This document shows, in pieces, positions 4,479 through 20,853 of a stretch of 48,842 nt of DNA. The notes below the pieces were generated by a model. The model made no database searches, was not told the DNA's origin, and saw only the letters and a program-made list of their open reading frames with translations. The stretch covers positions 1-48,842 of IMG/VR virus record IMGVR_UViG_3300048672_000438. One strand, written 5' to 3'. Position numbers and translations under genes: made by a program. This DNA is from a virus. Position 1 is the first letter of the stretch. Every line of letters starts with the position of its first letter.

Positions 4479-5165
4479 CTATCCCAAACGGATTACAAGT
4501 GCTCCATCTGCATCAGCTTCATCATTTTCGCTTATTTTGTCACCTTTCACTACTACCTTTACGGCAAAATTTGGGCCAATAAGCTTAGGACGGAAACCAG
4601 AGCTAACGGTCATACGCGGCGTATCACCATCTAACTTGACAGTACCATCATCGTTCCGCTGCTTTTTGTTAATGCAAACATCTTCCATAATGTCGTCGCC
4701 ATTTTCATCGCGCTCTACCTCAGAATTTTGCTTGCGATACTGATCAACCTGCTTAAACACAGTGGCCATCAGCTTATCAATGGTGCTGTGCTCTTCAACA
4801 GGAATAAACATGCCTTGACCAAATTCTAAATCCCCAAACGGATATTTGCTATCAATGTGGGTAGCTTCAGGAATATGGCCATTTATTTTCATACTGGCTT
4901 TGTCAATGATACGATACTCGCCAACCTCAGCCTTAGCGTCCCCTTGTGGCTGGCTAGTCGGATACATTGATACGGTTGGAGCAGCTACTTGGCTTTCATC
5001 CCTGCCACCTTCACCAGTACCGGGACCACCAGCCCCCTTGATCATGGCATGGTCAACTGCATCCGGGTTAGGATGCTCAGGGCCGGGCTGTGCTGCGTTA
5101 GGCTTGTTGCCGGGATCAGATGTAGGCTCAGCAGGCCAAGTCTGCTGTGGAGCTTTGCTAGCCAT
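4479..5165 (-). CDS. Phage hypothetical protein, paralogue of 7145-7783
   Basis: 228 residues. The N-terminal 80 are disordered (Pro, Gly, Asn, Gln). The C-terminal 140 share with the product of 7145-7783 the stretch KYPFGDLEFGQGMF (KYPFADLEVGGMFF there) and the ending ADGALVIRLG (ADGALVARTV there), so the two are paralogues with one conserved domain behind different disordered tails. No catalytic motif is visible. It lies just downstream of the tRNA cluster. Function unknown; two diverged copies suggest a useful protein, perhaps host-directed or nucleic-acid binding (inference). Confidence 0.75.
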   Translation of the reverse strand: MASKAPQQTWPAEPTSDPGNKPNAAQPGPEHPNPDAVDHAMIKGAGGPGTGEGGRDESQVAAPTVSMYPTSQPQGDAKAEVGEYRIIDKASMKINGHIPEATHIDSKYPFGDLEFGQGMFIPVEEHSTIDKLMATVFKQVDQYRKQNSEVERDENGDDIMEDVCINKKQRNDDGTVKLDGDTPRMTVSSGFRPKLIGPNFAVKVVVKGDKISENDEADADGALVIRLG

Positions 5166-5245
5166 CGGGAAGCGCCTTTCGTGAGAGGGTCAGAGAAGGC
5201 GCAACGCTGGCGAGGAACAAAGGTTCCTTTAAGAATTAAAAGGTT

Positions 5246-5336
5246 GGGAAGGGGTAGGAATCGAACCTACCATAACCAAATTGGGATCGAACCAATTAGC
5301 AGTAATGTTTTTACTGCCCACTACCAGTGCCTTCCC
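5246..5336 (-). other. tRNA-like element with two T-arm-like hairpins
   Basis: Read on the minus strand it has an acceptor stem GGGAAGG/CCTTCCC, a short D-arm (CAC-TGGTA-GTG), a hairpin in the anticodon-arm place (CAGTA, loop AAAACAT, TACTG), then two consecutive hairpins with T-loop sequence: ATTGG-TTCGATC-CCAAT and GTAGG-TTCGATT-CCTAC. The anticodon-position loop lacks T33 and the 3' end reads A-ACC rather than N-CCA, unlike the two tRNAs beside it. It may be a decayed long-variable-arm tRNA or a tRNA mimic. If the ATTGG hairpin were the anticodon arm, the anticodon would be CGA (Ser). Identity is unresolved. Confidence 0.5.
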
Positions 5337-5339
5337 ATA

Positions 5340-5414
5340 TGGTGCCCCTATCCTGACTTGAACAGAATTAAATCGCTTACAAGGCGATTGCATCACCATA
5401 AATGCTTTAAGGGC
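5340..5414 (-). tRNA. tRNA-Thr (TGT)
   Basis: Acceptor GCCCTTA/TAGGGGC (one G-T pair), D-arm GCAT-TTATGGTG-ATGC, anticodon arm ATCGC-CTTGTAA-GCGAT giving anticodon TGT, T-arm TTCTG-TTCAAGT-CAGGA, discriminator A and an encoded CCA. It is 75 nt long and lies 3 bp from the tRNA-like element and 7 bp from tRNA-Leu. It reads ACA best, useful in AT-leaning phage genes. Confidence 0.88.
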
Positions 5415-5421
5415 TAGTTAA

Positions 5422-5507
5422 TGGTGCGCTCTATCGGGATCGAACCGATACGGCATAAAGCCAACGGATTTTAAGTCCGTACTGTCTACCAATTCCAGCA
5501 AGAGCGC
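5422..5507 (-). tRNA. tRNA-Leu (TAA)
   Basis: Acceptor GCGCTCT/AGAGCGC, D-loop with AATTGGTAGAC, anticodon arm ACGGA-CTTAAAA-TCCGT giving anticodon TAA, a long variable arm typical of tRNA-Leu, T-arm ATCGG-TTCGATC-CCGAT, discriminator A and encoded CCA. It decodes TTA, a rare codon in GC-rich hosts. Confidence 0.92.
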
Positions 5508-5513
5508 ATTAAC

Positions 5514-5726
5514 TTAATTCATATTCTCTTTTGTCCGTTGCAATTCATGCAACTTTTTATCGTTTTGCTCAATGACGTTTCCTAGCATTTGGTGAAACGT
5601 CTTTAAAAAATCGTAAGTCAATGCCACACTAGCAACTATGATGACGCCATTAGCACCACTCTCCCTAAATTCTATGATAGGAATTTCATTCATATGCAGA
5701 TTTACATTGTTGCTGTATACGCTCAT
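5514..5726 (-). CDS. Hypothetical protein, 70 aa
   Basis: The start ATG is preceded by AGGTAAAGA. The centre (NGVIIVASVALTYDFLKTF) is mildly hydrophobic, and the C-terminal third (LHELQRTKENMN) is helical and charged. The start overlaps the stop of the upstream gene, so it sits at the end of the 5514-6120 mini-operon, next to the tRNAs. Not recognised. Confidence 0.6.
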   Translation of the reverse strand: MSVYSNNVNLHMNEIPIIEFRESGANGVIIVASVALTYDFLKTFHQMLGNVIEQNDKKLHELQRTKENMN

Positions 5727-5914
5727 TTCTTTACCTCAAATACTTCGCCAGTGTCAGAATTAATGCAAAACATAGCAATTTTACTTGAGCTAGGCTCTAG
5801 TAGTTTCAAGGCTGCTGCTTTACAAGCCAAGTCAGTTTTCATTGGGATTGTTTGTAATCTAGGGTCCGCTGTCAGTGTCCCCACAACTATAACTATTAGT
5901 AGGGTCCAACTCAT
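5723..5914 (-). CDS. Small exported or membrane protein, 63 aa
   Basis: Begins MSWTLLIVIVVGTLTADP, a signal peptide or short membrane anchor, followed by a 45-residue soluble part with two Cys (DLACKAAA and MFCINSDTG) that could form a disulfide. The stop overlaps the next gene and the start overlaps the KTSC gene upstream. Not recognised. Confidence 0.55.
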   Translation of the reverse strand: MSWTLLIVIVVGTLTADPRLQTIPMKTDLACKAAALKLLEPSSSKIAMFCINSDTGEVFEVKK

Positions 5915-6120
5915 TCCTTCACCTTCAACGTTCCCTTAATTGAATTAAAGTACTTACCAGCACTGGTAGCATTGATCAGGTTATCATAAGTACCCTTGTC
6001 AACGTCCTCATAAACGTAGTCTTTGCCATTAGCAAAAGTTACAGTAAGCTCCTTGCTTTCATCGTCAAACTCGCATGAATTGAGCATTGAGCTTTGCATA
6101 AAGTAAAATTTGTGTTTCAT
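5911..6120 (-). CDS. KTSC-domain protein, 69 aa
   Basis: The whole protein fits the KTSC domain pattern: QSSMLNSCEFDDESKELTVTF, then GKDYVYEDV and a C-terminal NATSAGKYFNS. KTSC proteins are small single-domain proteins common in phages and bacteria, sometimes fused to lysyl-tRNA synthetase; their function is not well known. The start lies in a repeated leader box (GAGAATGAGAGAATG) seen before several genes here. Confidence 0.75.
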   Translation of the reverse strand: MKHKFYFMQSSMLNSCEFDDESKELTVTFANGKDYVYEDVDKGTYDNLINATSAGKYFNSIKGTLKVKE

Positions 6121-6159
6121 TCTCTCATTCTCCCTTTTTAATTTCCGCTTCAGCGTCTA

Positions 6160-7144: not shown

Positions 7145-7783
7145 TTACACAGTACGCGCAACCAACGCACCGTCAGCCGGTGCAGTCCAATTGCCATAAG
7201 TCTGACCACCAACCACCGGACGAATGGTAAACTTGCGGTTATACTTCTTCACCGGCAACTGTACGGTTTCCTGCTTCTTGGAACCATCCTCATTAAGAAC
7301 AGCCTTCTTGGTCTGCTTATCGCGGACAGCACGGGTAATGGTACGCATCTCGCCAGTAGGCTCACTGTACTTGTCATTCTGAGCAGAGACAGTGCTACCC
7401 AATGCCTTTACGGCATCACCCTTAGCATGATCGCTGTTGGGCGAAAAGAACATACCGCCCACTTCAAGATCAGCAAACGGATACTTGGTAGGAGCACCCG
7501 AACCAGAGCTATTACCACGCTTCTTAGCCGGGGGCAGAACAGCACCAGTAACAATTACCGCGTGAGTACCACCAGACGGCTTAGCCTGTTCTGTGGAGCC
7601 ACCAGCAGCAACCTTAGCCTTACCAGCTTCAGTAGCACGGGCAAGCACCTGACCAGCATCATTCTTAACTTCAATATTCACTTCAATCAAACCAGCATCA
7701 ACCAACGGCTTAGCCTCAACTGAAACGTAAGACTGTACGCCAGCAGCATCATTAGCAACAATCTCAGCAAGCAACTTATCCAT
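7145..7783 (-). CDS. Phage hypothetical protein, paralogue of 4479-5165
   Basis: 212 residues. It has an N-terminal helical segment, an Ala/Gly/Ser/Lys linker, and a C-terminal domain that shares KYPFADLEVGGMFF and the ending ADGALVARTV with the product of 4479-5165. The intervening RKFTIRPVVGGQTYGNW is basic and beta-like. It stands directly upstream of a strong terminator. Function unknown. Confidence 0.75.
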   Translation of the reverse strand: MDKLLAEIVANDAAGVQSYVSVEAKPLVDAGLIEVNIEVKNDAGQVLARATEAGKAKVAAGGSTEQAKPSGGTHAVIVTGAVLPPAKKRGNSSGSGAPTKYPFADLEVGGMFFSPNSDHAKGDAVKALGSTVSAQNDKYSEPTGEMRTITRAVRDKQTKKAVLNEDGSKKQETVQLPVKKYNRKFTIRPVVGGQTYGNWTAPADGALVARTV

Positions 7784-7812
7784 TATACTATTTCCTTGTT
7801 TGAATTGGCGGA

Positions 7813-8004
7813 TTATTCCGCGCTGTTTTCAATAACGATATTTATAGGCTTTGGTTTCTCAGCGTCAAGCACTTTTTTAACAGGATCAGGAAAATTTCCC
7901 GGACAAGCTTCTAGCAGTTGATCGCCCTCAGCAGAACAAACACGGCAATACTCAACTGACTTGTAGCCGTCTTTGTAAATGCCATGTTTGTGAATGCGTG
8001 TCAT
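7813..8004 (-). CDS. Small protein with Cys pairs, 63 aa
   Basis: I start at the ATG at 8004, which overlaps the upstream TGA (ATGA). It carries YCRVCSAEGDQLLEAC, a CxxC plus a third Cys, so a metal site is possible but incomplete, and an acidic/proline-rich tail. Not recognised. Confidence 0.5.
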   Translation of the reverse strand: MTRIHKHGIYKDGYKSVEYCRVCSAEGDQLLEACPGNFPDPVKKVLDAEKPKPINIVIENSAE

Positions 8005-18217: not shown

Positions 18218-20623
18218 CTATAACAGCAAATCCATGTCATGAATGATGTAACATTTCTGGCTAGTACCAAAATCTTTAGCAAGCTGAGGTTTTGGCACTT
18301 CTCTAATACTATCCCTATCGCACAATGTTTGAAGAGTTTGATTGATAGCAACACTAGCTTTAACTCTACCATCATTGAATGTATTCAAGCCAGACAAACG
18401 ACTACTGAAATAAGTGAGAGGAATAACGCCAGCTTTATGCATCTTTTCTGACTTAGAATATTTCTTAATGTAATCCCAATCTTTCTTATGATAATCATTT
18501 ATCATTCTGATTACTTCCTTAACCTGCTTAGTTTCTCCTGTATGTTTACCAACTTCACCAGCCTCAAAACGAGATGACAAGCTGTTAATGTCATTAGTGA
18601 CTAGAGCTAATGACCATTCAACATAACTAGGAAGAATAACAGGATTATAAGGATTTGTGCCAACTGCAATCAATGACGACAAACGCAACACTTTCATATG
18701 TGCTCTATTCCACAACTCAGCAATAACATCATCATGAGCAGAATTGATATTGTCAGTAGAAGTCTTGTCCAAATTATCCAACATCTTCTGCGCTAATTCA
18801 TCAGTTTGAACATTCACAACTTTCTGAGCATGAATTGTAGTTTCGCAATGTGCAGCTAGTGACGCTAACTTTTCAATCAACTGAAAAGACGGTTGAACCA
18901 AATGAGAATTTTTATTTAAATATTCTCGCTGTCCGTTGTATTCAATGATAAGAAATCTTGGCAACAAACCAGCAGAAATCATGTCCTCGTTAAGAGCACC
19001 ATAAAACAATTTGTGGGTACTCTCTCCAAGAATGGAAACAGCAGGAGACATTGTAGCAGTAGTGCTATCTTCTTTCTTAGAATAGATAGACGCTTTAACC
19101 GATTGCCCGTGGCCAGATTTGTTATACAAGTCTAACAAATTCTGATACAAAGCTTTATCAGCAGAGCTAGCGAAAGGACTACTGATCCTCTCAATGGTAA
19201 TGCCAAACTCACCAAGCACAGATAAAAAACAATCAGACGTATGATTAAGATGCTTAATCAATGACTGGCCAGAATTGATAATGCCGGGACCAATAAAGCG
19301 GGCTGATGTAGGCACTTGCATACGAATGGCATTCATTAGCTTATCAATACCAGATGCGGCAGCTTCTTTTCCCCTCCCTGTTTTAGCTAATGTCAAAACA
19401 TACATATTCAAACCAGTGCCAGATATGTTGTACGCCTTCCCACAAATACCAGCCATTAACCCAATAGCAGCAGCTAAAGAGATTTCCACAGCTTGTCTAG
19501 GTGAAGCATCATAAATAAATTGTGCGATTTCCCCCATTAAACCGGGAGGAGGTGTATATTTAAAAGATTTAGACTTGGAAGCGGCATTAGGGATCGAACC
19601 TAAATTCACAGCGTCAAAGGCTGTTGTATTACCATTATACGATACCGCCAAGTTGGTAGGGCTGGCAGGATTTGAACCTGCGACCAATCCGTTATGAGCG
19701 AATGGCTCTGACCGCTGAGCTACAGCCCCATTTAACTTTTCCACAATAGCATTGTGTAATCCATCAAAGTCAACAGGCAAAGGTTGATTATCGAAAGAAC
19801 GATTAATCATTCTAAGCATGTAATCTTTACGCTTAACTTTATCACGCTTGCCTAAAGCTGAGCTATAGAAAATGCGCGAAATTTGAGCCAAGTTTTGCGT
19901 ATAGAATGCAATCATATCAACTAAAGCAAAGTCTGCTTCAGATGGTCCTTGATCTAAAGGAATATGAGGAAATACTTCGCGCCAATTGCCTTCATACAAT
20001 TTTGTAAACTTATCTCCATTGACAGCGTTCTTAGCTCTTTCAATGATCACATCATCTGTATATTCTTCTTTTCCATCGGTGACAATCGGCATAGTCATAG
20101 GAGCACCGCCCATTTGCTCCCAAAGCTGATTAAGCAATTCTTGCCGCTCAACAATAGGTTTATTATTGTACACGTTACCAGTCATTGTAAAAAATCGACC
20201 AGTAGAATACAGTTCTATCTTACTACGCCGTCTACCAGTGGGCACAGCACCTTTAACTATAATGTGTAAACCTCTGCCAGATGGGCTAATCTCAGAATAG
20301 CTATCAAATTCATTGAAAACCTTAAGTTGACGCTCAACTACAGAAGCGTCTCCTTCAGGTTCATCTAAATCAATTCCGGTATAATCACTGTTGGTAAAGA
20401 CAAATCCTAAACCAGAGTAATTACCCATTTGCAATACATTAAAACAATCCTCAAATGAGGACCAATGGTTAGGCTCAGTAACGCTAGCTAGCTGTCCATT
20501 CAATTGATATGGACGCTTGGTAGGCTTTTTATCTAATCCATTAGGATATTCTAAACGCCACAATACCCAATTAGGCAGCAGACGCAATTCGGCTGGCAGG
20601 TTTGTATAGAGTGATGCTGACAT
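18218..20623 (-). CDS. Primase-polymerase/DUF3987 helicase-like fusion containing two tRNA genes
   Basis: 801 codons. Residues 1-190 form a Prim-Pol (archaeo-eukaryotic primase fold) domain of the NrS-1 polymerase type: GIDLDE gives the metal-binding Asp85/Asp87, SPSGRGLHIIVKG (113-125) the nucleotide-binding motif and IELYSTGRFFTMTG the third. About 195-290 fit the NrS-1 helix-bundle domain (ADFALVDMIAFYTQN then KVKRKDYML). From about 355 on is a DUF3987-type part with a P-loop-like LAKTGRGKE and SILGESTHK/GLLPRFLI segments. It should prime and perhaps unwind phage DNA. Codons 299-350 (GAVAQRSEPFAHNG...) are not protein-like but the translation of two tRNA genes on the same strand. Either the link is tolerated or RNA processing splits the message. 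Confidence 0.85.
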   Translation of the reverse strand: MSASLYTNLPAELRLLPNWVLWRLEYPNGLDKKPTKRPYQLNGQLASVTEPNHWSSFEDCFNVLQMGNYSGLGFVFTNSDYTGIDLDEPEGDASVVERQLKVFNEFDSYSEISPSGRGLHIIVKGAVPTGRRRSKIELYSTGRFFTMTGNVYNNKPIVERQELLNQLWEQMGGAPMTMPIVTDGKEEYTDDVIIERAKNAVNGDKFTKLYEGNWREVFPHIPLDQGPSEADFALVDMIAFYTQNLAQISRIFYSSALGKRDKVKRKDYMLRMINRSFDNQPLPVDFDGLHNAIVEKLNGAVAQRSEPFAHNGLVAGSNPASPTNLAVSYNGNTTAFDAVNLGSIPNAASKSKSFKYTPPPGLMGEIAQFIYDASPRQAVEISLAAAIGLMAGICGKAYNISGTGLNMYVLTLAKTGRGKEAAASGIDKLMNAIRMQVPTSARFIGPGIINSGQSLIKHLNHTSDCFLSVLGEFGITIERISSPFASSADKALYQNLLDLYNKSGHGQSVKASIYSKKEDSTTATMSPAVSILGESTHKLFYGALNEDMISAGLLPRFLIIEYNGQREYLNKNSHLVQPSFQLIEKLASLAAHCETTIHAQKVVNVQTDELAQKMLDNLDKTSTDNINSAHDDVIAELWNRAHMKVLRLSSLIAVGTNPYNPVILPSYVEWSLALVTNDINSLSSRFEAGEVGKHTGETKQVKEVIRMINDYHKKDWDYIKKYSKSEKMHKAGVIPLTYFSSRLSGLNTFNDGRVKASVAINQTLQTLCDRDSIREVPKPQLAKDFGTSQKCYIIHDMDLLL
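19576..19649 (-). tRNA. tRNA-Gln (TTG) inside the primase gene
   Basis: Acceptor GGCGGTA/TGCCGCT (with G-T pairs), TC, D-arm GTAT-AATGGTA-ATAC, anticodon arm ACAGC-CTTTGAC-GCTGT giving TTG, 4-base variable loop, T-arm TTAGG-TTCGATC-CCTAA, discriminator T and encoded CCA. All invariant positions (T33, GG in the D-loop, TTCGA) are present. Same strand and in the same transcript as the primase gene; 4 bp from the next tRNA. Confidence 0.9.
19654..19729 (-). tRNA. tRNA (CAT; Met or Ile2) inside the primase gene
   Basis: Acceptor GGGGCTG/CAGCCCT, D-arm GCTC-AGCGGTCA-GAGC, anticodon arm ATTCG-CTCATAA-CGGAT giving CAT, variable TGGTC, T-arm GCAGG-TTCAAAT-CCTGC, discriminator A, encoded CCA. The CTCATAA loop and TTGGTCGC stretch recall bacterial tRNA-Ile2, in which C34 is lysidinylated to read ATA; elongator Met is the alternative. 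The 5' end falls exactly on codon 299 of the primase frame. Confidence 0.92.
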
Positions 20624-20630
20624 GTGATGC

Positions 20631-20816
20631 TTAATTATTCTTTAGCTTGGCTTCAAGTTGAACCAACGCCAGATTTACTACGTCAGCTAGCGAAACGTTT
20701 ATAGCCATAGGGCTATTCTGAATGAGTGAGTGAAGCTCACGCAATCTTTTAGCGTTAACACCAGTTAAGCTGATGTTTGCACGTTGCTCTTTAGAAATTT
20801 GATTATTTTGTGTCAC
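20631..20816 (-). CDS. Ribbon-helix-helix-type regulator, about 61 aa
   Basis: The frame is open from a GTG at 20825, but that overlaps the -10 box of its promoter, so the GTG at 20816 is likelier, giving an almost leaderless message. NISLTGVNAKRLRELHSLIQN then MAINVSLADVVNLALVQLEAKL fits an N-terminal strand plus two helices of a CopG/Arc-type ribbon-helix-helix repressor. It lies 7 bp before the primase gene and next to the divergent promoters, so control of one or both is plausible (inference). Confidence 0.55.
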   Translation of the reverse strand: MTQNNQISKEQRANISLTGVNAKRLRELHSLIQNSPMAINVSLADVVNLALVQLEAKLKNN

Positions 20817-20824
20817 GGGTGCCA

Positions 20825-20853
20825 CACCTAGCCTTGATTTCCAGTTCCGTCAA
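20825..20853 (-). promoter_or_regulatory. Leftward promoter of regulator and primase
   Basis: TTGACG (20848-20853), 17 bp, TAGGTG (20825-20830). Transcription should start near 20818. Back to back with the rightward promoter at 20872-20899. Confidence 0.6.

Follow-up and report, generated by a model that had tools for sequence, protein, structure and literature searches.

Two complete tRNA genes are nested, on the sense strand and in frame, within the coding region of a primase-polymerase/helicase in a 48,842-nt stretch of phage DNA (IMG/VR record IMGVR_UViG_3300048672_000438), which we refer to as the window. Comparison of the window with homologous loci from other phages demonstrates a dual constraint on the shared bases, as tRNA and as reading frame, the recurrence of the arrangement, and the exclusive location of these tRNAs in this gene. 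The reading that we favor, and hold to be likely from these comparisons, is that the same DNA specifies genuine tRNAs as well as a single uninterrupted protein, and that any given transcript goes either to translation or to tRNA processing.

The host gene (18218..20623, minus strand) has 801 codons, begins with ATG and contains zero internal stops. Its product matches the phrog_3022 profile, "DNA primase," over residues 6-792 (profile positions 6-784/788, E 5e-216) and has two halves. The N half (codons 1-298; 19730..20623, minus strand) contains the PrimPol and helix-bundle domains: Pfam places PF22763 (NrS1-1_pol-like_HBD) at residues 228-278 above the cut-off (E 7.5e-08), a profile match is obtained to the NrS-1 primase structures 6k9a and 6a9w (E 8.4e-37), and NrS-1 provides the top Foldseek matches of the protein. 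By these matches the N half is an NrS-1-type primase-polymerase with a helix-bundle domain. The C half (18218..19558, minus strand) is helicase-like. Its first residues form a PPPGL motif that is conserved in alignments, a Walker A sequence (TGRGKE) follows at residues 415-420, and there are weak Foldseek matches to MCM AAA+ proteins. The C half had been called DUF3987-like in the earlier note, a detail that is not confirmed: Pfam gave zero such match at E values up to 1. Homologues of the C half alone (L194-L210, ~460 aa), without the PrimPol half, occur in Sphingomonads and other bacteria, and begin at the same boundary as the C half of the fused protein. The presence of the C half alone in some bacterial genomes indicates that the two halves are separable.

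The gene order around the primase is as in phage DLP_2. A 64-aa ORF directly upstream (20631..20825, minus strand) stands where Septimatrevirus has its small HTH gene; a family match of its own was sought and none was found. Septimatrevirus-type phages such as DLP_2 have the same full-length phrog_3022 protein, with a small gene upstream and divergent MazG and Sak4 genes. Unlike the window, the cultured relatives of this type that were checked have an ordinary variable linker without tRNA, and a nested tRNA was found in none of the cultured phages DLP_2, VCLv21, PSV3, XAJ2, nyashin_LB6, Halfdan, and Kimi. The primase gene of Pseudomonas phage PSV3 (L009 and L010) is split over several frames in the deposited records, owing to sequencing error or decay. 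Another primase, that of L005 (same contig as L106), has no nested tRNA and contains an in-frame insertion of ~340 residues (5099-6133) in the Walker A loop of its C half, which resembles an intein with a homing-endonuclease-like part.

The two tRNA genes of the window are called by ARAGORN, and both encode their CCA ends. tRNA-CAT (76 nt; 19654..19729, minus strand) begins at base 1 of codon 299 and scores 66.8 bits with Rfam RF00005. tRNA-Gln(TTG) (74 nt; 19576..19649, minus strand) begins at base 3 of codon 325 and scores 60.4 bits. Both scores are above the gathering cut-off of 29 bits. A 4-nt spacer (19650..19653; ACTT on the minus strand) separates the two genes. These results bear out the earlier note, which had described the tRNAs as complete and as lying sense and in frame inside an uninterrupted 801-codon ORF; its coordinates and codon numbers (299-350) are correct. 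It had also placed the tRNAs exactly between the two protein halves, and the placement agrees with AlphaFold2 (18-row alignment), which predicts a disordered stretch at residues 297-354 (pLDDT <50) with a folded half on either side. The linker as a whole (codons 297-355; 19559..19735, minus strand) is nearly all encoded by the two tRNAs. We looked for relatives in which this region is conserved protein with no tRNA fold; relatives without tRNA have instead linkers that are unrelated and variable. A conserved protein domain mimicking a tRNA is thereby ruled out, and the translated stretch is best described as a tRNA-derived linker. The alternative raised in the earlier note, that such a linker is tolerated by the protein, is well supported.

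Viral contigs were scanned with the protein and with alignments, which yielded about 130 distinct homologous ORFs. tRNAs lie in the same interdomain linker, on the sense strand and in an open frame, in 22 distinct phage loci, comprising the window and 21 homologues that are 42-55% identical to it. The nested tRNAs total 33, nearly all at 55-72 Rfam bits. Their order is CAT-Gln in the window, L013, L016, L027, L029, L093, and L094, and Gln-CAT in L017, L022, L053, and L104. CAT alone is present in L014, L068, L097, L107, L110, and L185, Gln alone in L004, L007, and L023, and Leu(TAA) in L165, where other tRNAs were sought and none detected. L026 has a weak "Tyr" tRNA without CCA and with the lowest score (48.7 bits), which from its sequence may be a decaying CAT tRNA. 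Chance or artefact is ruled out as the source of the arrangement, which recurs in independent metagenomes and in 21 other distinct homologous loci, always with an open frame. In L017 (3939-4087) the final A of the Gln CCA doubles as base 1 of the CAT tRNA, a one-base overlap that prevents the same transcript from yielding both nested tRNAs whole. Downstream of the L014 primase (7734-7873) there is a 140-nt tRNA-like match of 36 bits with a long insertion.

In a tree from which the linker columns were excluded, a single clade of 34 rows (SH-aLRT 99) contains 21 of the 22 tRNA-bearing loci; L165 falls outside. The tRNA is missing from the linker in 13 of the 34 clade members, which indicates that both the enzyme and the phage can do without a nested one. 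On a careful tree, tRNA presence changes a minimum of 10 times. Such repeated gain and loss would suggest a permissive linker, a site used time and again by phages. It could be a landing site for free-rider or mobile tRNA genes, whose in-frame copies would be spared owing to the disorder of the linker, with any tRNA function incidental. The hypervariability of the linker, the variation in tRNA species and order, and the frequent gains and losses are in keeping with this reading. So is a trace of what is probably an in-frame loss: from base 931 of the L092 primase ORF onward, 15 nt match the 3' end of the window tRNA-CAT exactly and in the same phase, a length reached in 0 of 200 codon shuffles, and the match is probably a tRNA remnant. 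A search of the linkers of 13 tRNA-less loci with two covariance models found no degenerate tRNAs. We consider incidental insertion improbable as the full explanation. It accounts for the arrival of the tRNAs, but not for why they stay intact, and the strong compensatory covariation of their stems, with anticodons conserved between deeply diverged loci, indicates that they have been selected as tRNAs after insertion.

The covariation was determined in 14 aligned CAT tRNAs and 13 aligned Gln tRNAs. Stem cells are paired in 99.3% of cases for CAT and 98.5% for Gln, compared with 28-49% in slid controls. Changes on both sides are found for 15 of 21 stem pairs in CAT and 18 of 21 in Gln, with 0 of 500 shuffles as high, and the cells changed on both sides number 52 (CAT) and 75 (Gln), vs. 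15 and 21 in shuffles. Conservation extends beyond pairing: the CTCATAA anticodon loop is invariant in 14/14 CAT tRNAs, the TTG anticodon and the CCA are invariant in 13/13 Gln tRNAs, and the T-loop is also conserved. The codon periodicity of mismatch, which is strong in the flanking coding sequence, is absent or weak inside the tRNAs; by codon position, mismatch is 0.20/0.24/0.24 in the CAT tRNA vs. 0.26/0.16/0.59 in the downstream flank. From these patterns of change, the nested tRNAs are under selection as tRNAs.

A cloverleaf could also be kept as an mRNA structure, one that slows ribosomes between the domains for folding, rather than as a tRNA. Its position exactly at the domain boundary would suit such a role, and two tRNA-less loci, L020 (~13 bp) and L044 (~10 bp), carry strong, perfect, in-frame hairpins in the linker where relatives have tRNAs. 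Across tRNA-less linkers as a set, however, hairpins are not a general feature (median z -0.24), which rules them out as a common replacement of the tRNA, and structure-free relatives are common. Besides the pairing, the anticodon, T-loop and CCA are conserved as well. We regard this role as very unlikely.

Selection is apparent on the protein-coding side of the same bases. All 33 nested tRNAs are read in an open phase, while on average 1.24 of the three phases are open per tRNA. If the loci were independent, log10 P would be -13.3 for this outcome; the loci are related, and the nominal probability therefore overstates the case. It is still unlikely that at least 10 gains and losses would all be in frame by chance, the probability being about (1/3)^10. 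The basis of the constraint can be seen in the 76-nt CAT tRNA, in which U8-A9-G10 and U36-A37-A38 shut two of the three frames. Most nested CATs (14 of 17) have this frame-compatible length; the copies in L094, L107, and L185, which are 75 or 77 nt long, use another phase that is open. The spacers obey the same rule. The seven CAT-Gln spacers, that of the window included, are 1, 4, 4, 4, 7, 7, and 25 nt, every one 1 mod 3, and the Gln-CAT spacers are -1, 2, 5, and 5, every one 2 mod 3. Free-standing tRNAs have a mean of 0.94 open frames, with zero open in 21 of 79, and free CAT tRNAs, which are mostly 77 nt, have zero open in 5 of 8. From the comparison, the stop-free frame across the nested tRNAs is under selection.

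An open frame need not mean one protein. The tRNAs could separate two cistrons, their excision giving a PrimPol message and a helicase message, with the open frame incidental; the earlier note had similarly allowed that an insertion split one gene into two. The stand-alone C half of bacterial genomes, with its shared boundary, lends this reading some plausibility. It does not fit the loci themselves. The frame is open in 22 of 22 tRNA-bearing loci, none of the examined loci has a frame break at a tRNA, the mod-3 spacers are obeyed throughout, and all full-length tRNA-less relatives kept in the set are fused. Moreover, no start codon with a Shine-Dalgarno sequence is conserved after the tRNAs in the tRNA-bearing loci, so that ribosomes probably have no route to the helicase half other than through the tRNAs. 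We therefore consider two cistrons very unlikely; both halves appear, from the sequence comparison, to be made as one chain in this clade.

The species of the nested tRNAs differ from those found elsewhere in these genomes. When 24 related contigs were searched for tRNAs, the free-standing ones proved to be Leu-TAA, Thr-TGT, Pro-TGG, and Arg-TCT, and CAT and Gln-TTG tRNAs were seen only nested in the primase. The window has free-standing tRNA-Thr(TGT) and tRNA-Leu(TAA) between ORFs at 5340-5507. The identity of the CAT tRNA is probably the lysidine-type tRNA-Ile2, which reads AUA, rather than Met, since the free-standing set reads A-ending codons throughout. Identity to E. coli tRNAs gives overlapping ranges, 0.57-0.82 to ileX and 0.64-0.79 to metT for the nested CATs (0.74 and 0.79, respectively, for that of the window). 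We infer that the nested tRNAs serve A-ending codons as well, namely CAA, plus AUA if the CAT tRNA is Ile2.

In the reading that we favor, the primase gene would be transcribed as one message. As RNA, the tRNA stretch would have to take up its fold, be excised and serve in decoding; as code, its one stop-free frame would let a ribosome that has finished the PrimPol half continue into the helicase half. Ribosomes that follow behind the polymerase would melt the tRNAs and read them as linker codons, giving one protein of ~800 residues, whereas untranslated or delayed messages would fold and be processed by RNase P and 3' nucleases, which would release the tRNAs and destroy that message. We infer that both products are made and, in line with RNase P biology and with the earlier note, that they compete for transcripts. 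The sense strand of the window has no listed promoter-like site over the ~400 nt that precede the tRNAs, and the promoter scores of the region are barely above those of tRNA-less relatives (mean 8.5 vs. 7.4), which makes shared transcription likely. No convincing signal of an internal promoter for the tRNAs was found.

Competition could be more than a by-product. RNase P cleavage may be the purpose of the arrangement, acting as a regulated switch: ribosomes would keep the tRNAs unfolded, and slowed translation or a late need for tRNA would lead to processing, which turns the primase off and sets tRNAs free. The likely shared transcription would be expected of a switch, the tRNAs sit in an essential-looking replication gene and not at random, and it is the one place where these phages have CAT and Gln tRNAs. 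The 10 or more losses and gains, however, fit an optional feature better than a required switch, and the sequences have no signs of regulation, so we view regulated cleavage as possible but doubtful. We are similarly tentative about the broader proposal that CAT and Gln tRNAs are kept in the code of a replication enzyme so that tRNA and primase become mutually exclusive uses of a transcript, whether for a switch or for control of their ratio.

The nested tRNAs can be compared with several known systems. The free-standing tRNAs of phages, such as the arrays of Salmonella phage PVPSE1, are likewise complete, with encoded CCA and mostly U34 anticodons for A-ending codons, but they sit between genes, whereas the present ones are enclosed entirely by a conserved ORF, whose strand and frame they share. 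In tufB-type bacterial operons and in mitochondrial tRNA punctuation, a tRNA is excised from a transcript that also carries mRNA. Excision in those systems frees cistrons; here it would cut one cistron in two. SgrS/SgrT is a bacterial case in which one RNA is both a functional RNA and a message; in the primase transcripts, by contrast, the functional RNA is inside the coding region and its release would destroy the message. The nearest analogue is the Rickettsia palindromic element, a repeat of ~150 bp found in many genes and translated in frame without tRNA function (PMC10969869). Both are structured, lie in frame inside ORFs and would be translated as an extra peptide, but the palindromic elements repeat over many genes (PMC10969869), in contrast to the single-site tRNAs under tRNA selection in the primase. 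A precedent for complete tRNAs conserved inside a continuous same-strand ORF was not found in the open-access papers searched, which is weak evidence that there is none. The parts, a tRNA and a phrog_3022 primase, are ordinary and the arrangement is not; it is a variant of dual-coding genes and not categorically new.

Annotation practice usually takes a tRNA wholly inside a same-strand ORF to be a mistake. The comparison of 22 loci indicates that here both the tRNA and the protein readings are selected, and suggests that nested sense tRNAs may be missed where annotation pipelines drop one of two overlapping features. The primase genes offer a natural, clean example of the same bases carrying both an RNA structure and a protein code, and make it testable how a cell divides one transcript between the ribosome and RNase P. 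If cleavage does serve as a switch, these phages would have a built-in control between a replication enzyme and decoding capacity.
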